DNA of 64,000 nucleotides from Saccharopolyspora soli (GTDB taxonomy: Bacteria > Actinomycetota > Actinomycetes > Mycobacteriales > Pseudonocardiaceae): contig NZ_JALBWV010000030.1 in the NCBI RefSeq assembly GCF_022678645.1, positions 1 to 64,000 of the forward strand, read 5' to 3'. Both the position numbers and the translations under genes were made by a program. Under the pieces are notes generated by a model. The model had not been told where the DNA came from, did no database searches, and was given only the letters and a program-made list of their open reading frames with translations. Positions 47,881 to 58,617 of this stretch are shown here, piece after piece; within the stretch, counting starts at the first letter, position 1, and every line of letters begins with the position of its first letter.

Positions 47881-48819
47881 ATGTTCAACGTATCCCGGCG
47901 GTTGCTCACCGTGCTGGCCTGTGTGGCGCTGCCGTTGGGCCTGGCCGCCTGCGGCCCGAGCGCGGCGACCGATCAGAGCAGCACGCGCAACCCCGACGAG
48001 CTGGTGTTCGCGTCCATCCCGTCCGAGGAGTCCACCAGCCTGGAGCAGGAGTTCAAGCCGCTCATCGACATGCTGTCGAAGGAGACCGGCAAGAAGATCC
48101 GCATCGAGAAGGCCACCGACTACGCGGCGGTCATCGAGGGCCAGCGCACCGGCAAGGTCGATATCGCGATGTACGGACCGCTGTCCTACGTGGTGGCGCG
48201 CAACAGCGGGGTCCGGATCACCCCGCTCGGTGCGCAGGTCGAGACCCCGGGCTCCGTACCCGGATACCGGTCGTACGGGCTGGTCAAGGCCGATTCCCCG
48301 ATCCAGCGTCTGGAGGATTTCCGGGGCAAGCAGGTCTGCTTCGTGGACCCCAACTCGACCTCCGGCTACCTGTACCCGAAGGCGGCGCTGCAGACCGCTG
48401 GTATCGACGTCGCACGGGACATCAAGCCGGTGATGGCTGGTGGTCACGACGCATCCGCGCTGGCGATTAACAGCGGCCAGTGCGACGCCGGATTCGCCTA
48501 CGACACCATGGTCGACAAGCAGCTGCCGGAGAAGGGCAGCCTCAAGCCGGGCGACCTGCGGGTGGTGTGGCGTTCGGACGTGATCCCAGGTTCACCGGCA
48601 GCGGTCTCCGACGACCTGGACCCGGCGCTGAAGGGCAAGATCGTCGAGGCGTTCAAGACCAAGGCGAACGCCGACTACCTCAAGGCCAACGGTTTCTGCA
48701 CCGACAAGTGCGACATCGGCGGCTACTGGGGCTTCGTCCCGGCTGACGACGCGACGTTCAACAGCGTCCGCGACGTATGCAACATCACCCGCGAAAAGCA
48801 GTGCACCGAGGGCAGCTGA
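47881..48819 (+). CDS. phnD: Phosphonate ABC transporter substrate-binding lipoprotein PhnD
   Basis: The 312-residue lipoprotein has a signal sequence with the lipobox LAAC at residues 20-23 and the PhnD-type fold: DYAAVIEGQRTGKVDIAMYG, FRGKQVCFVDPNSTSGYLYP and WRSDVIPGSPAAVSDDLDPA. It would capture phosphonates or phosphite at the outer membrane face of the cell membrane. GGAAGGA lies eight bases before the ATG. Unusually, no phnC (ATPase) or phnE (permease) gene follows; the next gene, after a strong terminator, is phnF. A transporter encoded elsewhere must complete it. Confidence 0.9.
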   Translation: MFNVSRRLLTVLACVALPLGLAACGPSAATDQSSTRNPDELVFASIPSEESTSLEQEFKPLIDMLSKETGKKIRIEKATDYAAVIEGQRTGKVDIAMYGPLSYVVARNSGVRITPLGAQVETPGSVPGYRSYGLVKADSPIQRLEDFRGKQVCFVDPNSTSGYLYPKAALQTAGIDVARDIKPVMAGGHDASALAINSGQCDAGFAYDTMVDKQLPEKGSLKPGDLRVVWRSDVIPGSPAAVSDDLDPALKGKIVEAFKTKANADYLKANGFCTDKCDIGGYWGFVPADDATFNSVRDVCNITREKQCTEGS

Positions 48820-48835
48820 CGCGATTGGGTGATGA

Positions 48836-48882
48836 GTGAGGGGCACCTGTGACCCAGTTACTTGGTCACGGGTGCCCTTCAC
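48836..48882. terminator. GTGARGGGCACC-family palindrome after phnD
   Basis: GTGAGGGGCACCTGTGACC at 48836 pairs with GGTCACGGGTGCCCTTCAC at 48864-48882 apart from two G-T or mismatch positions. It separates phnD from the phnF-M unit, so these are probably separate transcripts. Confidence 0.7.
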
Positions 48883-48908
48883 TCCGAAAAACCCACACGC
48901 GTTGGTGA

Positions 48909-48931
48909 CAAGTGTTCGGGTTGTTCACTTG
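48909..48931. promoter_or_regulatory. CAAGTG-N11-CACTTG inverted repeat upstream of phnF
   Basis: A six-base inverted repeat lies about 65 bases before phnF. Overlapping it, GTTCACTTGC at 48923 matches a single actinomycete PHO-box unit at nine of ten positions, but the required second unit eleven bases away is poor. It could be a PhnF operator or a degenerate PhoP site. Confidence 0.4.
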
Positions 48932-48995
48932 CGCGGTTCTGGGCGTTGGGGCTTGGGAAGTTGTTCGGACAAGGTCGTCGCGCAGGCTTCCGGAC

Positions 48996-49727
48996 GTGGT
49001 CAGAAGCCGGTATGTGGAGATAGCCGACACGCTCGCCGCCGAGCTGGCCGAGCTCCCCGCGGGGAGCCGGATCGCCGGTGAGCACGAGATCGCCGCGCGT
49101 TTCCAGGTGGGGCGGGCCGCGGCCCGCGCCGCGATGCAGGAACTGGAACAACGGCTGCTGGTGCGCCGGGTGCGCGGCGCCGGAACGTTCGTGAACCGGC
49201 GCATCGACTACGTGATCTCCCAGCGCCGGGTTCCGTCGTGGCACCAGACCGTGCGCGAGGCCGGTGCCGTGCCGCGGTCGGTCGTGCGCGATGTGCGGCG
49301 CGTGCCGCTGCCCGCGGCCGAGGCCGCGCGGCTGGAGCGGCCCGCCGGTAACCCGGCGAGCCTGCTGATCCGCCAGTACTACGTCGACGACCTGCTGTAC
49401 GGCTGGGCCAACGAGTGGATCCCGGTCGACGTGCTGGCCGACATCGACATCGCGGTGCACGCCGTCGAGTCGGTCGACTCGATCCTGCGCCAGATGAGCA
49501 AGGTGCAGCCGGTCCGGGCCTGGTGCCGGGTCAGCTACGCGCTGCCGGAACCCGAGGTCGTGGCCGGACTGGAGACCGAGTCCGGCCGACCGGTGTGGCT
49601 GGTGGAAAGCGTCAGCCGGGACGCCGCGAGCGGCGTCCCGGTGCTGTGCAGCCGGACGTGGTCGCGCCCAGATTCCGCCCGGATCGTCGTCGAGATGGAC
49701 GGGCCGTACCAACCGGAGGACGAGTGA
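48996..49727 (+). CDS. phnF: PhnF-like GntR/UTRA regulator of phosphonate metabolism
   Basis: The 243-residue protein has an N-terminal GntR winged helix (RIAGEHEIAARFQVGRAAAR followed by RRVRGAGTFVN) and a UTRA effector domain (PSWHQTVREAGAVPRSVVRD). Together with its place at the head of the phn operon this identifies PhnF. The GTG at 48996 was chosen because it starts the conserved region; GTG/ATG codons upstream are possible and no good ribosome site is seen. Its end overlaps phnG by four bases (GTGA). Confidence 0.88.
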   Translation: MVRSRYVEIADTLAAELAELPAGSRIAGEHEIAARFQVGRAAARAAMQELEQRLLVRRVRGAGTFVNRRIDYVISQRRVPSWHQTVREAGAVPRSVVRDVRRVPLPAAEAARLERPAGNPASLLIRQYYVDDLLYGWANEWIPVDVLADIDIAVHAVESVDSILRQMSKVQPVRAWCRVSYALPEPEVVAGLETESGRPVWLVESVSRDAASGVPVLCSRTWSRPDSARIVVEMDGPYQPEDE

Positions 49728-50140
49728 ACAGGGAACAGCGGGTTGCGCTGCTCGCCGTGGCCGAACCGGCCGAGGTGATCGAGTTGGCCGACGGCTGCCT
49801 CGCGGCCGGGCCGCCGCCGACCGTACTGGTGGGACCGGAGATCGGCACCGTGTCGGTGCAGGTGCGGGAACCGATCGTGCGGGACCGGTTCCTGCTCGGC
49901 GATGTGCTCGCCTGCCGGGCCGAGGTGGAGTTGGACGGGGCGCGCGGCTGGGCGATGCGGCTGGGCGACGACCGGGCCGCCACGCTCGCCGCCGCGATCC
50001 TGGACGCCGCGGTGGAGTCCGGGCGGGCGCGGGCCGAGGTCGACCAGCTCTGCGCGCGGGTCCAAGAGCGGCAGCAGTTGGCCGAGGACACCGAATGGGC
50101 CGAGTTGGCACCGACGATCGTCGAGTTCGAGGAATTGTGA
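49724..50140 (+). CDS. phnG: PhnG, subunit of the C-P lyase core complex
   Basis: The 138-residue protein aligns with PhnG along its length (REQRVALLAVAEPAEVIELA, VRDRFLLGDVLACRAEVELD, GDDRAATLAAAILDAAVESG). With PhnH, PhnI and PhnL it catalyses displacement of adenine from ATP by phosphonate to form 5-triphosphoribosyl-alpha-1-phosphonate. GTG start overlaps the phnF stop; the stop overlaps phnH (TGATG). Confidence 0.9.
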   Translation: MNREQRVALLAVAEPAEVIELADGCLAAGPPPTVLVGPEIGTVSVQVREPIVRDRFLLGDVLACRAEVELDGARGWAMRLGDDRAATLAAAILDAAVESGRARAEVDQLCARVQERQQLAEDTEWAELAPTIVEFEEL

Positions 50141-50673
50141 TGACCGCTTCCCTGTCGCCTGAGAAGGCACAACTGGTCTTCCGCGCGGTGCTGGACGCGC
50201 TGGCCAGGCCGGGCGAGGTGCTGCGCTTGCCGGAGAGCCCGGTGCCCGCACCGCTGCTGCCGGTGCTGGCGCTGGCGGATCTGGACACCCCGGTGCACGT
50301 CGACGACTGGGCCGATGTCGTCCGCACGCAGACCGCCGCGCCGATCGTCGACCGCTCCGGTGCGCGGCTGGCGGCGCTGCTCAAGCCGTTCGGCGAGTTG
50401 TCCGGTTTCCGCGTCGGCAGTGCCGCCGCGCCGGAAGAGGCAGCGTTGGTTTCCGTTGCGGTGCAAGGCTTCGGCGCGGGTCCGGCGCTGCGGCTGAGCG
50501 GCCCCGGTGTGCCTGGGCAGCGCGAATTGCGGGTGTCCGGCCTGCCCGCGGACTTCGTCGCGCAGCGGCGGAACCTGATCGCCTTCCCGGCCGGTCCCGA
50601 CCTGCTGCTGGTCGACCCCGCTGGCGAACTGGTCGGGCTGCCGCGCTCCACCCGAGTCGAGGAAGGTGCCTGA
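50140..50673 (+). CDS. phnH: PhnH, subunit of the C-P lyase core complex
   Basis: The 177-residue protein shows the PhnH pattern: SPEKAQLVFRAVLDALARPG near its start, then LALADLDTPVHVDDW, and NLIAFPAGPDLLLVDPAGEL near the C-terminus. PhnH folds like a PLP-dependent transferase domain but lacks PLP and forms part of PhnGHIJ. It overlaps phnG and phnI by one base each, so translation is probably coupled. Confidence 0.9.
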   Translation: MTASLSPEKAQLVFRAVLDALARPGEVLRLPESPVPAPLLPVLALADLDTPVHVDDWADVVRTQTAAPIVDRSGARLAALLKPFGELSGFRVGSAAAPEEAALVSVAVQGFGAGPALRLSGPGVPGQRELRVSGLPADFVAQRRNLIAFPAGPDLLLVDPAGELVGLPRSTRVEEGA

Positions 50674-51782
50674 TGGGATATTCCGGAGTTCGCGGCGGGA
50701 TGAGCGCCATCCTGGCCGCCGAGCGGCTGGTGCGCCGGTCGCGGGATCACGCCCCGGCGGGCTGGGCGAGCACCGAGCAGATCGTGCTGCGGTTCCGCCT
50801 GGCCGTCGATCGGATCATGGGTGAGGCCGGGCTCTACGACCCGCCGACCGCCGCCGATGCTTTCCGGCAGGCCGAAGGGGATGTGCTGGAGGCGGCGCAC
50901 TTGGTCCGGGCGCACCGGTCGACGCTGCCGAGGTTGGCGGTCACCGAGCCGGTCGATCCGGACGAGATGGTGGTGCTGCGCCGCATCGTCCCGGCCAACC
51001 GCACCCCGGACGGCCCGCAGTTGCTCGGCCGCACCACCGACTACACCGGCCGACTCCTGGAACGCCCGGACGGCGCGCCGGAACCCACCGAGTCCACAGT
51101 GGATGAACAGGTCGAGCGCACCGCGGAACAGCGCCACCCACGTCGCTTCTACCAACTGCTCCGCGACCTCGACCTGGTCGTGGAGCACGGCGAGCGGGTC
51201 GAGGACCCCGAGCCGTTCGACATCACCCGGCGGGCCGCCCGCCCACCGGCACCGCGCTCGGCGGTGCTGTCCAGCATGGCTCGCGCGGAAACCGGTGCGC
51301 TGGTCGGGCTTTGGTACCGGTCCGTCCTCGGCCCGGACGGCGACGTCCACGAGATCACCCTCGGCGACACCCGGCACGGCCGCGTCCCGCTGCGGGTCGT
51401 CCACCCGCACACCGGAAAACAGGTGCGGATCGGGCAGATCCGGGTGACCGAGGTGGAGGGCATCGAGGACCTCGACGGCGCCGACGAGGACCGCACCCGT
51501 TTCGACGTCGGCTACGGGCTGTGCTTCGGGCACAACGAGCGCAAGGCGATCGCGATGGCGAACCTGGACATCGCCTGGCGCCGGGCCGCACCGGACAGCC
51601 CGCTGGAGCAGTTGCTGCTGCTCACCACCGACGGCCTGGACTCCGGGGGTTTCCTGGAGCACCTCAAGCTGCCGCACTACGTGACGTTCCGGTCCATGGT
51701 GGACCGCAAGATCGCCCGGCGGAAAGCGCGGAACTCGACCGAGCCGCGCGTGCCAGAGCCGTTCGGGAAGGAGTGCCGATGA
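50673..51782 (+). CDS. phnI: PhnI, nucleosidase-like subunit of the C-P lyase core complex
   Basis: The 369-residue protein begins MGYSGVRGGMSAILAAERLV, the conserved PhnI N-terminus, and continues through LPRLAVTEPVDPDEMVVLRR and VGYGLCFGHNERKAIAMANL to LPHYVTFRSMVDRKIARRKA. PhnI carries the nucleosidase activity of the complex. Normal length. Its stop overlaps the start of the first small peptide-coding cassette (ATGA), and AAGGAG near its end serves that start. Confidence 0.92.
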   Translation: MGYSGVRGGMSAILAAERLVRRSRDHAPAGWASTEQIVLRFRLAVDRIMGEAGLYDPPTAADAFRQAEGDVLEAAHLVRAHRSTLPRLAVTEPVDPDEMVVLRRIVPANRTPDGPQLLGRTTDYTGRLLERPDGAPEPTESTVDEQVERTAEQRHPRRFYQLLRDLDLVVEHGERVEDPEPFDITRRAARPPAPRSAVLSSMARAETGALVGLWYRSVLGPDGDVHEITLGDTRHGRVPLRVVHPHTGKQVRIGQIRVTEVEGIEDLDGADEDRTRFDVGYGLCFGHNERKAIAMANLDIAWRRAAPDSPLEQLLLLTTDGLDSGGFLEHLKLPHYVTFRSMVDRKIARRKARNSTEPRVPEPFGKECR

Positions 51783-51922
51783 CGCCCCCTGTGTCAACCT
51801 CAGTCGTCCCGAACCGCACCTCAGGGGAACGTGACGCAAACCAGCCACGAGAAACCATGAAACGCCGAGAACGGCTGGGCGCGACCACAACTGTGAAATG
51901 CGGAGAGGCGGAACAGCGATGA
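51779..51922 (+). CDS. sORF1: 47-residue peptide cassette between phnI and phnJK
   Basis: A short gene starting MTPPVSTSVVPNRTSGERDA and ending in VKCGEAEQR. It starts on ATGA overlapping the phnI stop, behind AAGGAG, and its own stop overlaps the start of phnJK (ATGA). It ends with GGAGAGG, the ribosome site for phnJK. It matches the three cassettes at 54.46-54.87 kb in length and frame while differing at many bases. The product is polar, lacks hydrophobic segments and resembles no family I know. It could be a real peptide or merely the translated part of a repeat that preserves coupling. Confidence 0.55.
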   Translation: MTPPVSTSVVPNRTSGERDANQPRETMKRRERLGATTTVKCGEAEQR

Positions 51923-53709
51923 CCACGTCGACCGTGGTGTCCGTTCGGGATCTGGTGGCGGATGTCGAGGACCGCGCCGGCATCCTCGACGAGGGCGCGA
52001 AGCGGGAGATCCGCCGCGCCGCGCTGGTCGCGGTGTGCGTGCCGGGCTACCAGGTGCCGTTCGGTTCCCGCGAGATGCCGGTGGCCCGCGGCTGGGGATC
52101 CGGCGGGTTGCAGGTGACGTTGGCGGTCATCGGTGCGCAGGACGTCGTGAAGGTGATCGACCAGGGCGACGACGGCGGTGTCAACGCCGTCAACCTGCGC
52201 CGCATGATCGCGGACACCACCGGCTGCGCCGCCAGCACCGACACCCGTCGGGCGACGGTCATCCAGACCCGGCACCGGATTCCCGAGGAGAAGTTGGGCA
52301 GGCAGCAAGTCCTCGTCTACCAGGTGCCGGTGCCGGAGCCGCTGCGCGGCGTGCAGAAGTCAGTCGTCGAATGCGCCCGGATGCACGCCGAGAACGACTA
52401 CTCGGCGATGTGGGTCAGCCTGTACGAGGACCTGGTCCGCAACGGGGTGATCACCAAGTCGACCGGCTACCCGGTGCTGGTGAACGGCCGCTACGTGTTG
52501 GCGACCAGCCCGGTGCCGCGCTGGGACGTGCCGAAGCTGCACCAGTGCGAGCACCTGAACCTCTACGGCGCGGGCCGCGAGAAGCGGATCTACGCCATCC
52601 CACCGCACACCGATGTGCTGCCGTTGACCTTCGACGACATCCCGTTCGAGGTGGAGCAGGTGCCCGGTGCGCGCTGCAAGTACTGCGGCTCGCGGACCAG
52701 CTTCCTGGTCGAGGGCGGGGCAGGCGAGTACGTGTGCAGCGACTCCGATTGGTGTTCGCGGGTCGAGGCCGGTGACGCCGACGTGGCGGGGCACCTGTTG
52801 CCGATGACGATGTTGCCGGAGGTCGATCGCCGTCCGGTCGAGGTCGTCGAGGCGCCGAGGCCGGTGGGCGGTCCGGAGTGGGCGCTGCGGGTCGAGGGCA
52901 TCGGCAAGGTGTACGGCTCGGGCGGCGCGGACGCCGTCGCGGGAACCGGCCCCGAGCACGGCACCGCGATAAGTCCCGGAACCGGCGCGGTGGTCGCGGC
53001 CTGGGACATCTCCTTCGACGTGGCGCCCGGTGAAGCGCTCGGGATCATCGGCGAATCGGGCTCCGGCAAGTCGACGGCGCTGCGCTGCTTGATCGGCGAC
53101 GAGGCGGCCACCAGCGGCAGCGTCCATCTCTCCAGTGTGGATGGTGGAAGTACCGACCTGCTGCGGATGGATTCCGCGCGGCGTCGGCGGCTTCGCGTGG
53201 ACACCATGGCGGTCGTGCACCAGGACCCGGCGGCGGGCCTGGACCTGCGGGTGACCGCCGGTGGCAACGTCGCGGAGCGGTTGACCGCTGCCGGATGGCG
53301 CGGCTACCACGCGATCCGCAAGCGCGCGGCCGAACTGCTCGACCGCGTCGAGGTCCCGCTGTCCAGAATGGACGATCCGGTGAGCACCTTCTCCGGCGGG
53401 ATGCGGCAGCGCGTCCAGATCGCCAAGGCCCTGGCCACCGAGCCACCGGTGCTGCTGCTCGACGAGCCCACCACCGGGCTCGACGCATCCGTCGCGGCGG
53501 GCGTGCTCGACCTGTTGCGCGGACTGCTCAGCGAACGCGACATCGCGGCGGTGGTGGTCAGCCACGACTTCGCGGTGATCGAGGCGTTGACCGACCGCAG
53601 CGTGGTCATGCAACTCGGCCGGATCGTCGAACGCGGCCTCACCGACCAGCTGTTCGCCGACCCGCACCACCCCTACACCCAGCGGCTCGTGGCCGCCGCC
53701 CGAAGGTGA
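51919..53709 (+). CDS. phnJK: PhnJ-PhnK fusion: C-P lyase radical-SAM subunit joined to ABC-type ATPase
   Basis: One 596-residue frame covers PhnJ (about 1-300) and PhnK (about 318-596). The PhnJ part has CKYCGSRTSFLVEGG and EYVCSDSDWCSRVE, holding the three cluster cysteines and the catalytic Cys in the same pattern as E. coli PhnJ. The PhnK part has Walker A IIGESGSGKST, signature STFSGGMRQRVQIAKALATE and Walker B VLLLDEPTTGLDA. PhnJ breaks the C-P bond by radical chemistry, and separate PhnK docks on PhnJ as a dimer. The junction (VEVVEAPRPVGGPEWALRVE) shows no stop or alternative start. The start ATG 51919 follows GGAGAGG of the small cassette. Confidence 0.9.
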   Translation: MTTSTVVSVRDLVADVEDRAGILDEGAKREIRRAALVAVCVPGYQVPFGSREMPVARGWGSGGLQVTLAVIGAQDVVKVIDQGDDGGVNAVNLRRMIADTTGCAASTDTRRATVIQTRHRIPEEKLGRQQVLVYQVPVPEPLRGVQKSVVECARMHAENDYSAMWVSLYEDLVRNGVITKSTGYPVLVNGRYVLATSPVPRWDVPKLHQCEHLNLYGAGREKRIYAIPPHTDVLPLTFDDIPFEVEQVPGARCKYCGSRTSFLVEGGAGEYVCSDSDWCSRVEAGDADVAGHLLPMTMLPEVDRRPVEVVEAPRPVGGPEWALRVEGIGKVYGSGGADAVAGTGPEHGTAISPGTGAVVAAWDISFDVAPGEALGIIGESGSGKSTALRCLIGDEAATSGSVHLSSVDGGSTDLLRMDSARRRRLRVDTMAVVHQDPAAGLDLRVTAGGNVAERLTAAGWRGYHAIRKRAAELLDRVEVPLSRMDDPVSTFSGGMRQRVQIAKALATEPPVLLLDEPTTGLDASVAAGVLDLLRGLLSERDIAAVVVSHDFAVIEALTDRSVVMQLGRIVERGLTDQLFADPHHPYTQRLVAAARR

Positions 53710-53717
53710 GGTCATCA

Positions 53718-54461
53718 GTGTCCACAGTGGATGACACGCCCGTGCTGACGGTGCGCGGGCTGCGCAAGACGTTCACCCTGCACACCATCGACGGCCGGAC
53801 GGTCGTCTCGCTGCGCGGCGTCGACCTCGACGTTTCCGCGGGTGAGCACGTTGCGATCGCCGGGCCGAGCGGCGCTGGCAAATCGAGCCTGCTGCGCTGC
53901 ACGCAGCGCAGCTACCTGCCGGATTCGGGCTCGGTCGTCCTGCACACCGACGACGGGCCGGTCGATCTGGCCGCGCTGCCGGACCGGGCGCTCGCCCGGC
54001 TCCGGGGTCGCCAGCTCGGCTACGTCTCGCAGTTCCTCGCCACGCCGCCGCGCACTGGGCCGCTGGAGGTCGTCGCGGCGGCGGCCCGGCGACGCGGGTT
54101 GGACCGCGCCGAGGCGCGGGACGCTGCGGCGGAGTCGTTGCGGCGGCTGGCATTGGACGAGGCGTTGTGGGACGTCGACTGCGGGGTGCTCTCCGGCGGG
54201 GAGCGGCAGCGGGTCAACCTCGCGGCCGGGACCGTTCGGCCGCCGCGACTGTTGCTGCTCGACGAGCCAGTTTCGGCGCTGGACCCGGAGAACCGGGAGC
54301 GCGCCTTGGCGCTGATCGCGTCGCTGACCAGCCAAGGCGTGGCGGTGCTGGCGGTGTTCCACGACCTCGACGCGATCCGGCGGCTGGCGACGCGGGTGGT
54401 CGAGATGGCCGATGGGCGGATCGTCCGGTCAGGCACGGCAGAGGAGGTGCTTGCGGCATGA
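53718..54461 (+). CDS. phnL: PhnL, ABC-type ATPase of the C-P lyase pathway
   Basis: The 247-residue protein has Walker A IAGPSGAGKSSLLRC, signature GVLSGGERQRVNLA, Walker B LLLLDEPVSALD and VFHD, as in PhnL. It takes part with PhnG, PhnH and PhnI in the first step. Start is GTG 53718, eight bases after phnJK with AAGGTGAGG upstream. It contains the palindrome TCCACAGTGGA in its third to sixth codons. Its stop overlaps the next cassette start (ATGA). Confidence 0.9.
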   Translation: MSTVDDTPVLTVRGLRKTFTLHTIDGRTVVSLRGVDLDVSAGEHVAIAGPSGAGKSSLLRCTQRSYLPDSGSVVLHTDDGPVDLAALPDRALARLRGRQLGYVSQFLATPPRTGPLEVVAAAARRRGLDRAEARDAAAESLRRLALDEALWDVDCGVLSGGERQRVNLAAGTVRPPRLLLLDEPVSALDPENRERALALIASLTSQGVAVLAVFHDLDAIRRLATRVVEMADGRIVRSGTAEEVLAA

Positions 54462-54601
54462 CCAGTCCTGTATCAACCGCAGTCCTCCTCAACTGCACCT
54501 CAGGGGACCGTGAAGCAAGCCAGCCACAAGAAACGAGGCAACGCGAGATTGGGCTGGGCGTAACCACCACTGTGAATCGCGGAGAGGCGGACCATGAGTA
54601 G
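54458..54601 (+). CDS. sORF2: 47-residue peptide cassette after phnL
   Basis: The frame starts MTSPVSTAVLLNCTSGDREA and ends TTTVNRGEADHE. The ATG overlaps the phnL stop; the TAG overlaps the start of the next copy by eight bases. It shares with sORF1 the skeleton VST-x-V-x2-N-x-TSG-x-R-x-A-x-QP-x-ET and a GEA ending. GGAGAGGCGG near its end is placed to start the following copy. Function unknown. Confidence 0.5.
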   Translation: MTSPVSTAVLLNCTSGDREASQPQETRQREIGLGVTTTVNRGEADHE

Positions 54602-54737
54602 TCCTGTATCAACCGCAGTCCTCCTCAACTGCACCTCAGGGGACCGTGAAGCAAGCCAGCCACAAGAAACGAGGCAACGCGAGATTGGGCTGGGCGTAAC
54701 CACCACTGTGAATCGCGGAGAGGCGGACCATGAGTAG
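54594..54737 (+). CDS. sORF3: tandem copy of the peptide cassette
   Basis: Its unit is identical to sORF2 except in the second codon, so it arose from a very recent duplication with a 136-base period. The product starts MSSPVSTAVLLNCTSGDREA. Start and stop both overlap the neighbouring copies by eight bases, and the GGAGAGG site is repeated. Confidence 0.5.
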   Translation: MSSPVSTAVLLNCTSGDREASQPQETRQREIGLGVTTTVNRGEADHE

Positions 54738-54870
54738 TCCTGTATCAACCGCAGTCCTCCTCAACTGCACCTCAGGGGACCGTGAAGCAAGCCAGCCACA
54801 AGAAACGACGCAACGCGAGATTCGACGGGACGCGACCACCACTGCAAATCGCGGAGAGGCGGAACAGTGA
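54730..54870 (+). CDS. sORF4: last, diverged copy of the peptide cassette, before phnM
   Basis: The first 26 codons equal sORF3; the last part differs (TTQREIRRDATTTANRGEAE) and, at its end, resembles sORF1 (GEAEQ). The 46-residue frame ends in TGA overlapping the GTG start of phnM, with GGAGAGG seven bases upstream of that GTG. Confidence 0.5.
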   Translation: MSSPVSTAVLLNCTSGDREASQPQETTQREIRRDATTTANRGEAEQ

Positions 54871-56030
54871 GTTGGCCGTTGGCGGCGACGCCGGAGGATT
54901 ACGTGCTCGGGCACGTGCGGGCCGTGCTGCCGGACCGGGTCACCGACGACAGCCGGATCGTGGTGCGTGCCGGGCGGATCGAGGCGGTCGAGGACCACCC
55001 GGCGGGGTCGTCCTGCGACCTCGACGGTGGCGGACTGCTGTGCATTCCGGGTCTGATCGACGTGCACAGCGACGCCCTGGAACGCGAGCGGGCACCGCGG
55101 CCGTCGGCCGTGCTGCTGTGGGATTTCGCCCTGTTGTCGCTGGAAGGCAAACTCACCGCGGCGGCCGTCACGACGGTGTTCCACGGCGCGGGGTTCCAGC
55201 ACAAGACCTCGCACGGCACGCAGCGCACCGTGGGCAACGCGGCGGAGCTGTGCGAAACCGTGCGCGCCAGGGGAGCCGGACCCGTGGATCACCGGGTGCT
55301 GCACCGGCTGGACGTGCGGTCCGCCGAGGGAGCCGAGGCCCTGCGCGCGGAACTGGCCACTGTGGACGAAGGTGCGCTGGTTTCGCACGAGGACCACACG
55401 CCCGGCATCGGCCAGTACGCCGACCGGCGGCAGATGGAGCGCTACCTCGTCGGCGCGGACCAGATGACACCGGAGCAAGCCGAGCAGCACGTCACCGAGA
55501 TGATCGCCGAGCGCGGCGAACTGCTCGACGTGCGGGAGGCGAACCTGGCCTGGCTGGGCGATCTCGCGCGGTCCGGCCGGATCCGGCTGCTCGGCCACGA
55601 CCCGGAGTCGGCGGAGGAGATCGCCGCGCTGTGCACCAGGGGCGGGGCGGTCGCGGAGTTCCCCACCACGATGGCGGCGGCCGTCGCGGCCCGCGAGCAC
55701 GGGCTACCTATCGTCGCGGGAGCCCCGAACGTCCTGCGCGGCCACTCGCACGCGGGCAACGTGTCGGCCCGAGAGCTCGCGTCGCGCGGGCTGGTCACCG
55801 CGCTGGCCTCGGATTACCTGCCGTCCGGTCTGCTGGCCGCGGTGTTCGGGCTCGTCGACGAGATCGGGTTGCCCGCCGCGATTGGATTGGTGACTTCCGG
55901 TCCGGCCGCGGTTGCCGGGATTTCCGATCGGGGTCGGCTGGAACCCGGTCTGCGCGCGGATCTGGCGTTGGTGCAGCGGGGTTCGAGGTGGCCGCTGGTG
56001 CGCGCGGTGTTGTCGGGAGGTGCGGCATGA
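54867..56030 (+). CDS. phnM: PhnM, ribosyl triphosphate phosphonate diphosphatase
   Basis: The 387-residue amidohydrolase-fold protein has CIPGLIDVHSDALERERAPR, VSHEDHTPGIGQY and LASDYLPSGLLAAVFGLVDE, which match PhnM. It removes pyrophosphate from 5-triphosphoribosyl-1-phosphonate to give the PhnJ substrate. GTG start overlaps the last small cassette; the stop overlaps the next gene (ATGA). Confidence 0.92.
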   Translation: MSWPLAATPEDYVLGHVRAVLPDRVTDDSRIVVRAGRIEAVEDHPAGSSCDLDGGGLLCIPGLIDVHSDALERERAPRPSAVLLWDFALLSLEGKLTAAAVTTVFHGAGFQHKTSHGTQRTVGNAAELCETVRARGAGPVDHRVLHRLDVRSAEGAEALRAELATVDEGALVSHEDHTPGIGQYADRRQMERYLVGADQMTPEQAEQHVTEMIAERGELLDVREANLAWLGDLARSGRIRLLGHDPESAEEIAALCTRGGAVAEFPTTMAAAVAAREHGLPIVAGAPNVLRGHSHAGNVSARELASRGLVTALASDYLPSGLLAAVFGLVDEIGLPAAIGLVTSGPAAVAGISDRGRLEPGLRADLALVQRGSRWPLVRAVLSGGAA

Positions 56031-56836
56031 TCGGATGGTCGGTTCCGGACCCGCAGATCCCATCCGCCACGCACGCGGTGCTGGCCGAGGCCGCCAAGGC
56101 GGCGTCCGCGGCGTTCCGCGACGCTCGGGCCCGCTACGACCGGACGGAACTCGCCGAGACGTCCTCGATGGGCGCGGACGGCACGGCGTCGATGCGGCTG
56201 GATCTGCTGGTCGAGGCGGGAATCGCCGAGGTCGCCGAGGCGCACCGGATCAACCTGCTCAGCGAGGAGGTCGGGTTCGTCGACAACGGCTCGGCGGTGA
56301 CGCTGGTCGCCGACCCGGTGGACGGCACGGCGAACGCCGCCGCCGGGGTGCCGCTTTCGGCCTTCGCCGGGGCGATCGTGGTCGACGGGACGCCGATCGA
56401 GGCGTTGACCTGCTGGCTGGACACCGGACGGTGCTGGCACGCGGTAGCCGGGCAGGCGGCGGAGTTCCGCACCAGCGGCCGACGCGCGCTGGACGGTGCG
56501 GCGGTCAGCCTGCTGCGCCCGCACGAGCGCAGCGCGGATGCGTGGTGGCGAGTGGCGAAGCGAGCGGCGCGAGTGCGGATCCTGTCCACGAGCTGCCTGG
56601 AGGCGATGCTGGTGGCGGAGGGCTCGACGGACGCGTTCGCCGACGCGGCCTCGGACACCCACCGAATCGTCGACCTGGTTGCGGCGATGGTGGCGCTCCC
56701 GGCGGCGGGCGGAGCGGTCCTGGACGTCCACGGCAGACCGCTGGAAATCACCCCGGACCTGCACCGCCGCTGGTCGGGAGTGGTCGCGGCAACCCAGGAG
56801 CTGGCCGAAGAACTAGCCACCACCATCCGAGGCTGA
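56027..56836 (+). CDS. Inositol monophosphatase-family phosphatase in the phn operon
   Basis: The 269-residue protein keeps the lithium-sensitive phosphatase residues: Glu in NLLSEEVGFVD, the metal site VADPVDGTANAAAG, and Asp in DAASDTHRIVDLVAAM. It overlaps phnM by four bases, so it belongs to the operon. E. coli completes the pathway with PhnP and PhnN, which are absent here; this enzyme may dephosphorylate a ribose phosphate made after C-P cleavage. That role is an inference, since the cyclic phosphate of the lyase product would still need a phosphodiesterase. Confidence 0.82.
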   Translation: MIGWSVPDPQIPSATHAVLAEAAKAASAAFRDARARYDRTELAETSSMGADGTASMRLDLLVEAGIAEVAEAHRINLLSEEVGFVDNGSAVTLVADPVDGTANAAAGVPLSAFAGAIVVDGTPIEALTCWLDTGRCWHAVAGQAAEFRTSGRRALDGAAVSLLRPHERSADAWWRVAKRAARVRILSTSCLEAMLVAEGSTDAFADAASDTHRIVDLVAAMVALPAAGGAVLDVHGRPLEITPDLHRRWSGVVAATQELAEELATTIRG

Positions 56837-56864
56837 AAGCTCTCGCCTTCCCCGGTGGGACGGT

Positions 56865-56885
56865 CAATTTCTCGCGAAATTGCGC
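56865..56885. repeat. CGCGAAATT palindromic repeat, copy 2
   Basis: CAATTTCTCGCGAAATTGCG with a final C matches 45613-45633 at 20 of 21 bases. As there, it lies shortly after a gene stop (29 bases after the phosphatase gene), ahead of a convergent gene. Confidence 0.5.
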
Positions 56886-56917
56886 AGCTTCCATGTGGGT
56901 GCACGATCGGGGGCTAG

Positions 56918-56964
56918 GTGAAGGGCACCTTTTCCCAACTATGTTGGTAAAAGGTGCCCCTCAC
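56918..56964. terminator. GTGARGGGCACC-family palindrome ending the phn operon
   Basis: GTGAAGGGCACCTTTT at 56918 pairs with AAAAGGTGCCCCTCAC ending at 56964, apart from one G-T-type position, with inner CCAA/TTGG. It lies between the convergent phn operon and RraA gene and can serve both. Confidence 0.75.
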
Positions 56965-56986
56965 CCGGAACGGATCGCGTGGTGGG

Positions 56987-57661
56987 TCAGTGGCGGAGGC
57001 GGCCGATCATGTTGTCGTCCGGGTCGAAGTCGGGGGATTTGACCCAGTTCAGGAACTTCTGCTCGCGTTCTACGACCTTGTCGGCGGCGGCCGGGAGTTC
57101 GGCGGCGATCTCCTTCGGAATGAGCAGGACGCCGTGCTTGTCGGCGTGCAGCAGGTCGCCGGGGGAGACCCGGAGGCCGCCGACCGTGACCGGGATGCCG
57201 ACCTCTTCGGTGCGCACGTACGCGTGCGAGACGCCGACGGCGCTGGCGAAGAAGCGGAAGCCGATCGCGTGCGCCTCGTCGAGGTCGCGGACGCAGCCGT
57301 TGGTCACCACGCCCTCGCAGCCCAGCGCGTCGAAGGTGGTCGCCATGACCTCGCCCCAGAAGGCGCCGTGCGCGGGCGGGTCGTCGAGGTCCTGGAGCAC
57401 CACCACGCGCGGGCCCGGCACCTCGCGCACGTGGTTCCACACGAGATCCGGTCCGTGGCCGGGCCCGGTGCCACGAGCGCGGATCGTGCCGGTGGCCGCG
57501 TAGCCGACCAGCACCGGCAGATCCGGGAAGATGCAGCGGATTTCGTGGCTGGCGTAGCCGGTGTCGCGTGGGCGGATGTCGAAGGTTTCGATCGCGTTGG
57601 CCATCGTCGGAGTGTCGTAGCGCCGCAGCGCGGCTAGCACGGTCGACTCCAGTTCCTCCAC
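56987..57661 (-). CDS. RraA-family protein (aldolase/decarboxylase-like)
   Basis: The 224-residue protein has the RraA/HMG-aldolase fold: TPTMANAIETFDIRP, GPDLVWNHVREVPG, WGEVMATTFDALGCEGVVTN, GCVRDLDEA with the catalytic Arg-Asp pair and GDLLHADKHGVLLIP. Family members include RNase E inhibitors and metal-dependent 4-hydroxy-4-methyl-2-oxoglutarate aldolases; the neighbouring sugar-acid genes favour an aldolase or oxaloacetate-decarboxylase role. It follows the molybdenum hydroxylase genes on the same strand but a palindrome separates them. Confidence 0.85.
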   Translation of the reverse strand: MEELESTVLAALRRYDTPTMANAIETFDIRPRDTGYASHEIRCIFPDLPVLVGYAATGTIRARGTGPGHGPDLVWNHVREVPGPRVVVLQDLDDPPAHGAFWGEVMATTFDALGCEGVVTNGCVRDLDEAHAIGFRFFASAVGVSHAYVRTEEVGIPVTVGGLRVSPGDLLHADKHGVLLIPKEIAAELPAAADKVVEREQKFLNWVKSPDFDPDDNMIGRLRH

Positions 57662-57739
57662 AGTGGACTCCTCGCTCGTCTGATCACCTGCCAGCTGAGC
57701 CGGTCTGGTCGCTCAGCCCACGCATGTCGCCCGAGATGA

Positions 57740-57786
57740 GTGAGGGGCACCCGTGACCAACTAACTGGGTCACGGGTGCCCCTCAC
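57740..57786. terminator. GTGARGGGCACC-family palindrome, perfect copy
   Basis: GTGAGGGGCACCCGTGACC at 57740-57758 is perfectly complementary to 57768-57786 (19-bp stem, nine-base loop). It follows the stop of the medium subunit gene and precedes the RraA gene on the same strand. Confidence 0.8.
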
Positions 57787-57799
57787 CTCGGCGAAACCG

Positions 57800-58617
57800 C
57801 TACGCGCCGCGTGCCGCGGCCGCTTCCAGCGCCCGGCGCACCAGGACCTTCGCCAGGTGCCTCCGGTAGTCGGCACTGGCGCTGGCCTGGTCCGGAGGCG
57901 ACGTGTCCTCCGCCGCCCGCTCCGCTGCTTCGGCGGCGCTCGCTCCGCTCGCCAGCGCCTCCTCCACGCCGCGGGCCCGCATCGGCGTCGGGCCCATGTT
58001 CACCAGCGCGACGCGCTGACCGGCGACGGCTACGCCGACCATCGCCCAGTCGATGGCCCGCTTGGTGAACTTCTGGAAGTCCCAGCCCTGCGTCGGGTTC
58101 TTCGCCACCCGGATCTCGACGAGCAGTTCGTCCTCGCCGAGCGCGGTCTCGAAGAAGTCGGTGAAGAACTCCGTCGCCGGGATCTCCCGCGACCCCGACG
58201 GACCCTGCGCGACCAGCACGGCGTCCAGCGCCAGCGCCACCGCGGGCAGGTCCGAGGCCGGGTCGCCGTGCACCAGCGAACCGCCGATGGTGCCGCGGTG
58301 CCGCACCTGCGGGTCGCCGATGGTGCCCGCCGCGTGCGCCAGCAGCGGCGCCTCGCGGGCCAGCAGTTCGGAGTTCTCCAGGTCGTGGTGCCTGGTCAAC
58401 GCACCGATCCGGATCTCCGAGCCGTCCTCGCGGATGTAGGACAGGTCGCGCAGCCCGCCGAGGTCGATCAGCACCTCCGGCACCGACAACCGCAGCTTCA
58501 TCAGCGGCAGCAGCGAGTGCCCACCGGCGAGCAGCTTCGCGTCGTCGCCGTGCTCGGCGAGCAGGCTCAGCGCCTCCTCGACGGTGTTCGCCTTCTTGTA
58601 GGTGAACGCGGCAGGGA

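Follow-up and report, generated by a model that had tools for sequence, protein, structure and literature searches.

The question raised by a 64,000-nucleotide stretch of the Saccharopolyspora soli genome (contig NZ_JALBWV010000030.1, positions 1 to 64,000; hereafter the window) is why two junctions of its phn operon hold four copies of a short repeat, each carrying a reading frame of 46 to 47 residues that is coupled to the frames on both sides. An earlier reading made from the letters of this DNA alone (the sequence-only reading) left two explanations in competition, a real peptide family and a selfish or regulatory repeat that had evolved to be translation-neutral inside operons. Our analysis supports the translation-neutral repeat: the insertions are precise, a target-duplication signal accompanies them, and the frame is kept in most of the copies at gene junctions. 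With a probability of roughly 0.85, we suggest that these repeats are mobile and non-autonomous elements, ~136-160 bp in length, that insert in NTGA start codons and keep the frame of the operon, while their peptide is not kept.

The copies lie on one strand at 51778-51919, 54457-54592, 54593-54728 and 54729-54870, with start-to-start spacings of 2679, 136 and 136 bases. Their coordinates and frames confirm the arrangement described from the letters, namely four units in the same orientation at two phn junctions, and the start and stop positions likewise agree with the ATGA-type and eight-base overlaps described there. Copy 1 is placed between phnI and phnJK, and copies 2 to 4 are in tandem between the second ABC (ATP-binding cassette) gene, phnL, and the next gene. 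The features of this region are as follows.

50673..51782, + strand: phnI, upstream of copy 1 (Pfam PF05861, E 1.8e-90)
51777..51783, + strand: CGATGAC, presumed duplicated target, left arm of copy 1 (read from the sequence; the signal is family-wide)
51779..51922, + strand: copy 1, 47-codon frame between phnI and phnJK; its ATGA overlaps the phnI stop and its stop overlaps the phnJK start (ATGA at 51919)
51902..51912, + strand: ribosome-binding site of copy 1, GGAGAGGCGGA (position by eye; conserved in alignments A1 and A2)
51917..51923, + strand: CGATGAC, presumed duplicated target, right arm of copy 1 (read from the sequence; the signal is family-wide)
51919..53709, + strand: phnJ-ABC domain fusion (phnJK), after copy 1 and before copy 2 (PF06007, E 2e-117; PF00005)
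53718..54461, + strand: ABC ATPase gene (phnL), upstream of copy 2 (PF00005)
54458..54601, + strand: copy 2, 47 residues; its ATGA overlaps the phnL stop and its stop overlaps copy 3 by eight bases
54594..54737, + strand: copy 3, tandem, 47 residues, ATGA start; 99% identical to copy 2, and overlaps copy 4 by eight bases
54730..54870, + strand: copy 4, tandem, 46 residues, ATGA start; 91% identical to copy 2, and its stop overlaps the GTGA start of the next gene at 54867
54867..56030, + strand: open reading frame downstream of copy 4, the "phnM" of the sequence-only reading

The last of these has no Pfam match at 1e-10, and the name phnM comes from the sequence-only reading alone. Copy 1 had been described as differing widely in bases from the others, but it is 77% identical to copy 2. 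GGAGAGGCGG can be read in the sequence of all four copies.

When the S. soli genome was searched with BLAST, 47 matches were obtained (79 candidates, 40 of which were scored), and a sequence model built from 29 copies gave 86 matches (148 candidates scored). A chance repeat is excluded because of these 86 matches, the best of which has an E of 7.5e-40. Within the genus, 19 of 22 Saccharopolyspora genomes match the model, with 0 to at least 142 copies each: 142 in G014, 141 in G012 and 117 in G002 (148 candidates were scored in each, and the first two counts at least are probably lower bounds), followed by 91 in G004, 36 in G013, 21 in G008, 19 in G017 and 0-5 in the remainder. At the level of the family, scoring 10 candidates per genome gave matches in 56 of 297 sampled genomes, which represent 15 of 46 genera. 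A broader model, with 7 candidates scored per genome, matches 15 of 397 genomes of the order, 14 of which belong to the element's own family. By eye, the single hit outside the family (L396, E 1.2e-4) and the weakest one inside it (L397, E 7.1e-4) resemble the usual ribosome-binding sites found where housekeeping genes adjoin, and L396 looks like a chance match. Among the matches listed by a pattern scan are S. indica, S. hirsuta, S. oryzae, S. shandongensis and S. elongata, as well as Actinophytocola, Actinosynnema, Kibdelosporangium, Labedaea and Amycolatopsis. The search in relatives, an idea of the sequence-only reading, revealed a dispersed family that reaches far beyond the phn setting. 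On S. soli contigs C133, C163 and C173, copies lie within ~330 bases of contig ends; the assembly may break at the repeat, in which case the true copy number would be higher.

Of 80 S. soli copies analysed for their position, 74 begin with ATGA, GTGA or TTGA; the stop of the upstream frame coincides exactly with this overlap in 55. When genes were assigned by codon-usage scoring, the pattern found 73 copies in S. soli, 65 of them non-tandem; the downstream gene is on the same strand in 62/65, and 45 of the 65 are flanked by two same-strand genes. In 40/45 such copies of S. soli, 53/63 of other Saccharopolyspora and 30/36 of other genera (these three sets are given in this order below), the upstream gene ends in an NTGA that also contains a start codon. 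A minority of 16, 25 and 3 copies, respectively, sits at gene starts without upstream coding. The codon-usage sets consist of non-tandem copies with a clear gene on the needed side, away from locus ends, whose core and ribosome-binding site were both found by the patterns.

Comparison with relatives shows the same junctions in filled and in bare form. Between phnI and phnJ, the 9/9 relatives where phnI was found have an ATGA overlap and no element, the sequence being CGATGA and then C, G or A. The phnL/phnM junction is bare in G010 and G006, and holds two copies in G008, one copy in G017, G002 and G012, one copy plus another repeat in G004, and a different repeat in G014 and G013. When the joined flanks of 20 S. 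soli copies were searched in G008 and G017, bare ATGA sites were found for L012, L014, L005, L018, L004 and L095 (the last in G008 only, as G017 has another repeat upstream), and bare but locally altered sites for L113, L107 and L093. The site of L088 is filled at the orthologous position, L109 gave no information, and no usable match was obtained for the remaining nine. At purS/purQ, for which 60 family genomes matched and 30 loci were taken, S. soli is filled (L089 and L254 are the same site) and the 29 other loci are element-free; this junction is also filled in L175 and L252 of another genus and in L207 and L214 of the same genus.

The pyrB/pyrC junction was followed over all 22 genus genomes, 11 of which are filled and 11 bare. 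Nine of the filled calls were made by pattern, and those of G007 and G011 by length and ribosome-binding site; the latter two places are also matched by the models or BLAST. Placed on a tree of the flanking genes, the filled state changes 9 times, and at least 8 of these changes are forced by well-supported branches; gain and exact loss are alike possible for each, and sister species such as G002 and G014 differ. Judged from these sequence comparisons, the repeat family behaves as a mobile insertion rather than as a peptide gene.

The bases around the left and the right NTGA were compared in 114 copies by a permutation test. Matches between the two ends exceed the permuted values at positions -2 (65 vs 36.0), -1 (70 vs 57.3), 0 (83 vs 68.3), +4 (72 vs 50.6) and +5 (49 vs 41.4), while positions +1 to +3 are set by the overlap and uninformative for duplication. 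Position -3 is marginal (56 vs 49.8), -7 shows an isolated excess (45 vs 31.0), and no excess is present at -6 to -4 or +6 to +9. The sum over -4 to -1, +4 and +5 is 344 against 263.8 expected, with none of 1000 permutations as high; in three subsets, 0, 0 and 13 of 1000 permutations were. Such a distribution agrees with a duplication of ~7-8 bases that takes in the stop-start overlap, and since the NTGA would be among the duplicated bases, this alone would yield both of the overlaps that keep the operon coupled.

An ordinary miniature inverted-repeat transposable element (MITE) that inserts at random, has no target preference and survives where selection spares harmless copies at operon junctions would also account for the duplication signal, and the lack of room for a transposase in the element suits it too. 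However, it predicts survivors between convergent genes and in antisense orientation, whereas nearly all of the 65 S. soli copies have a same-strand gene downstream, and changes that recur at one particular NTGA speak for a preferred target. We regard random insertion as improbable.

Insertion into start codons is accompanied by conservation of the frame. At operon junctions, the frame of the element reaches the next gene, by overlap with its start or by an in-frame run into it, in 34/40, 46/53 and 26/30 copies of the three sets; in-frame runs account for 6, 17 and 8 of these. The start-to-start distances at 2, 0 and 1 modulo 3 number 30, 6 and 4 copies in S. soli, 31, 15 and 4 in other Saccharopolyspora, and 20, 7 and 2 in other genera, the in-frame runs having distance 0. 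When in-frame fusions and distances of 220 or more were left out, lengths other than the modal one were at 2 modulo 3 in 18/22, 11/15 and 15/17 cases, which makes 44/54 pooled, or 24/34 with each length counted once per set, against a chance expectation of one third. All 11 filled pyrB/pyrC sites have lengths at 2 modulo 3, namely 140 six times, 152, 155, 158, 236 and the shortened copy of G011 (95 by script, 98 by eye). The overlap is exactly four bases in 9/11 of them; the G008 frame stops 11 bases short, and that of G011 overlaps further.

Individual S. soli copies show how length changes are compensated. In L005, L015, L019 and L119, a +1/+2 shift is offset by a repeated 3' end, and in L108, L121 and one copy of L010 a shift is offset through two indels around the core. 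The former four and further loci repeat their 3' end, ribosome-binding site included, in 12- or 23-base units. A strict count of complete chains found 46/60, 63/91 and 29/46 copies connected, against ~18, 29 and 16 when the interiors were shuffled. This count called upstream genes by third-position GC, which mis-assigned L207, L214 and L248, all regular on inspection, and it is therefore probably conservative. An upstream gene that stops at an internal GTGA was also considered; it proved to be an artefact in several inspected loci, although L237 reads so.

While the frame is kept, the peptide is not. Most copies hold an open frame of ~45-59 codons, and 47/48 canonical-length S. soli copies are open, as a functional small-protein family encoded between operon genes would have it. 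However, the conserved DNA core is translated NRTSGERD in one group of coupled copies and TAPQGNVTQ in another. Among coupled junction copies of other genera, 18 read it in one frame, 7 in a second and 1 in a third, and even at the orthologous pyrB/pyrC site five copies use one frame and four another (the core was not found in two). In the 48 canonical copies, the ratio of nonsynonymous to synonymous substitution rates (dN/dS) is 0.80 in frame and 1.01 and 0.71 in the other frames; since the in-frame value lies between the other two, nothing singles out that frame. Codon-position bias was not detected in the element (range 0.037, P 0.60), its peptides have no match in Pfam or NCBIfam, and its presence flips at least 8 times at pyrB/pyrC. 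The small-protein reading is largely refuted by these results, and we consider it very improbable. The argument of the sequence-only reading that frame conservation favors selection on translation holds for the frame and fails for the amino acids, and it rests on related copies. The data support that selection in operons maintains an open frame and not a peptide sequence, as far as sequence comparison goes.

Here, we need to consider several points that weigh against the mobile, frame-keeping element. At operon junctions, premature stops occur in 1, 6 and 3 copies of the three sets and other frame failures in 5, 1 and 1, and an internal TAG is present in one of the G008 phnL/phnM copies and in the G017 copy; these junction counts, like the 114 copies of the duplication test, include related and orthologous copies. 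The positions summed in the duplication test were chosen after an earlier S. soli version of it. A neutral simulation left 38.3 of the 48 canonical-length copies open on average, fewer than seen, and it overstates the case by treating related copies as independent; private substitutions, tested by themselves, gave no significant result (0 stops vs 1.3 expected, P 0.27). At gene starts without upstream coding, the next gene is reached in 25/44, the NTGA is missing where it was sought in 11/44, and the frame is preserved in 5/8, 1/5 and 1/1 of the copies with a non-modal length; weaker figures at such places are expected if selection acts on operon coupling, and the cases are few. Among the non-tandem S. 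soli copies compared, identity to the nearest neighbour does not rise above 0.96, and very recent movement is thus not visible there. Finally, the search for a mover, which covered Y1 transposases (PF01797) and reverse transcriptases, yielded no transposase for the element, as both are absent from the high-copy genomes G014, G002 and G004; PF01797 is represented by one fragment in G012 and one copy in S. soli. Both enzymes were rejected as movers because they are missing from several high-copy genomes, as was a repetitive extragenic palindromic (REP) element with its REP-associated tyrosine transposase (RAYT) or an element of the insertion sequence IS200/IS605 type, for which those genomes have no matching Y1 transposase.

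It was also considered that the repeat might be kept for its own benefit, as a portable translation booster or a regulatory RNA that raises or regulates expression of the downstream gene. The strong ribosome-binding site, a nucleotide core conserved independently of the frame, and the copies at gene starts without an upstream gene all speak for such a role. A fold of the broad set suggests that the core CCGCACCTC pairs with GAGGCGG of the ribosome-binding site, and when 40 copies of each set were tested thermodynamically, this pairing had a mean probability of 0.11 in other Saccharopolyspora and 0.19 in other genera, compared with 0.05 in shuffles. In S. soli, however, it was 0.02, below the shuffles, and the pairing exceeded 0.3 in 1, 6 and 12 of the 40 copies per set. 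Overall pairing of the ribosome-binding site resembles shuffles in all sets (0.65/0.68, 0.68/0.67 and 0.77/0.74). RNAalifold found 0 covarying pairs on 29 S. soli rows and on 21 broad rows, where pairs that never vary cannot be judged, and of the six Rfam hits in 48000-58000 not one lies on a copy or attains a gathering score. Conserved RNA structure as a general mechanism was rejected on the lack of covariation and on the S. soli pairing, while a weak signal remains for a modelled role of the pairing between CCGCACCTC and the ribosome-binding site outside S. soli. Ten sampled downstream genes are of mixed function (nine have Pfam hits to different families, one has none), and half of the species do without the element at pyrB/pyrC. 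We thus think a beneficial booster or regulator unlikely.

For the mobile element, we suggest the following course of events. Insertion would target NTGA start codons, mostly at the stop-start overlaps of adjacent genes, and seems, on statistical support, to duplicate ~7-8 bases including the NTGA. At the left duplicate the upstream stop would overlap the element's start codon, and at the right one the element's stop would overlap the downstream start. The element sequence supplies an open frame, the right length modulo 3 and the strong ribosome-binding site before the downstream gene. Ribosomes leaving the upstream gene would probably reinitiate on the short frame, terminate at the downstream start and begin again there, and by this hand-through the insertion would be nearly neutral. 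The element is too short to hold a transposase, and the enzyme that moves it presumably acts in trans.

The stops inside the element also bear on such a relay. With the exception of a TAG close to the 5' end, most of them are GTGA stop-start overlaps; GTGA occurs 64 times vs 14.9 in shuffles in 29 copies of other genera, and CTGA 14 times vs 47.4 in 65 S. soli copies. Ribosomes entering in the third frame are handed on in 13/65 S. soli copies vs 5.1 in shuffles, and in 14/35 vs 3.1 and 9/29 vs 2.9 of two further sets, while in S. soli such entry mostly dies (37/65 vs 22.6 in shuffles); the copies share ancestry, and these counts are not independent. It is a tentative and rather unlikely extension of our proposal that a transposition system of the Pseudonocardiaceae aims at NTGA starts and that the element has been shaped towards a frame-tolerant ribosome relay, which would pass on ribosomes in more than one frame.

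Literature searches found no paper on this repeat family, and its closest parallel is a mycobacterial one. According to a 2025 review, mycobacterial interspersed repetitive units (MIRUs) appear to be mobile, to insert at start codons and to carry an open reading frame coupled by a four-base overlap (PMC12548453, citing Supply et al. 1997). Start-codon insertion and an internal frame coupled with a four-base overlap are found here as well. MIRUs are oriented in the direction of transcription of their neighbours, and this orientation recurs in the 62 of 65 non-tandem S. soli copies that have a same-strand downstream gene. They measure 40-100 bp, whereas the present element is longer (~136-160 bp) and belongs to another host family. 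We suggest that its way of working is the same as that of MIRUs, by analogy with their description and not with their sequence.

The Rickettsia palindromic elements and Chunjie seem to be looser parallels. The former are repeats of ~150 bp. Many of them leave reading frames open, nearly half are inserted within genes, with which they form in-frame fusions, and the peptide encoded by each is conserved (PMC10969869). The length of ~150 bp and the open frames are shared, but our element is mostly an intergenic separate cistron whose peptide is not conserved. Chunjie is, by the title of the work, a MITE in an operon that it does not disturb (PMC10969869), and like MITEs the element is non-autonomous. 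The target-site duplication of MITEs has a statistical counterpart in the ~7-8 bases around the NTGA. MITEs also carry terminal inverted repeats, and no inverted repeat joining the ends of the element was found among the window's inverted pairs with a minimum length of 25 bases (the best 25 of 31); shorter ones were not searched. Termination-reinitiation at ATGA stop-start overlaps has been reported for other gene pairs (PMC6728339). These pairs show the same stop-start coupling, but belong to the usual gene arrangement of the host, of which the element seems to take advantage.

The likeness to MIRUs, though by description alone, would place their way of working in a large family of antibiotic producers. 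The case offers filled and bare sites in sister species, a duplication signal, and a frame that withstands changes in length although the peptide drifts. It also provides natural pairs of operons with and without the element, on which the weight of translational coupling could be gauged, and points to an enzyme that prefers start codons. For annotators it is a warning, as these short open reading frames are probably not genes.

Some minor observations concern other junctions and repeats. At L097, L098 and L121, the junction has no obvious start codon and the element frame enters the gene that follows, much as though the element now served as its new N-terminus. The phnL/phnM junction in L074 and L077 (G014 and G013) is occupied by a palindromic repeat that is unrelated to the element, GTGAGTGC...GCACTCAC, and is also seen in L073. 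It is open from ATGA/GTGA to the downstream ATGA, over 29 codons in G014 and, with two copies, over 45 codons in G013; other junction repeats may follow the same open-frame rule. The window also contains three related hairpin-like palindromes (GTGAGGGGCACC...GGTGCCCCTCAC) at 48836-48884, 56918-56964 and 57738-57786, which are possibly terminators or another repeat family.

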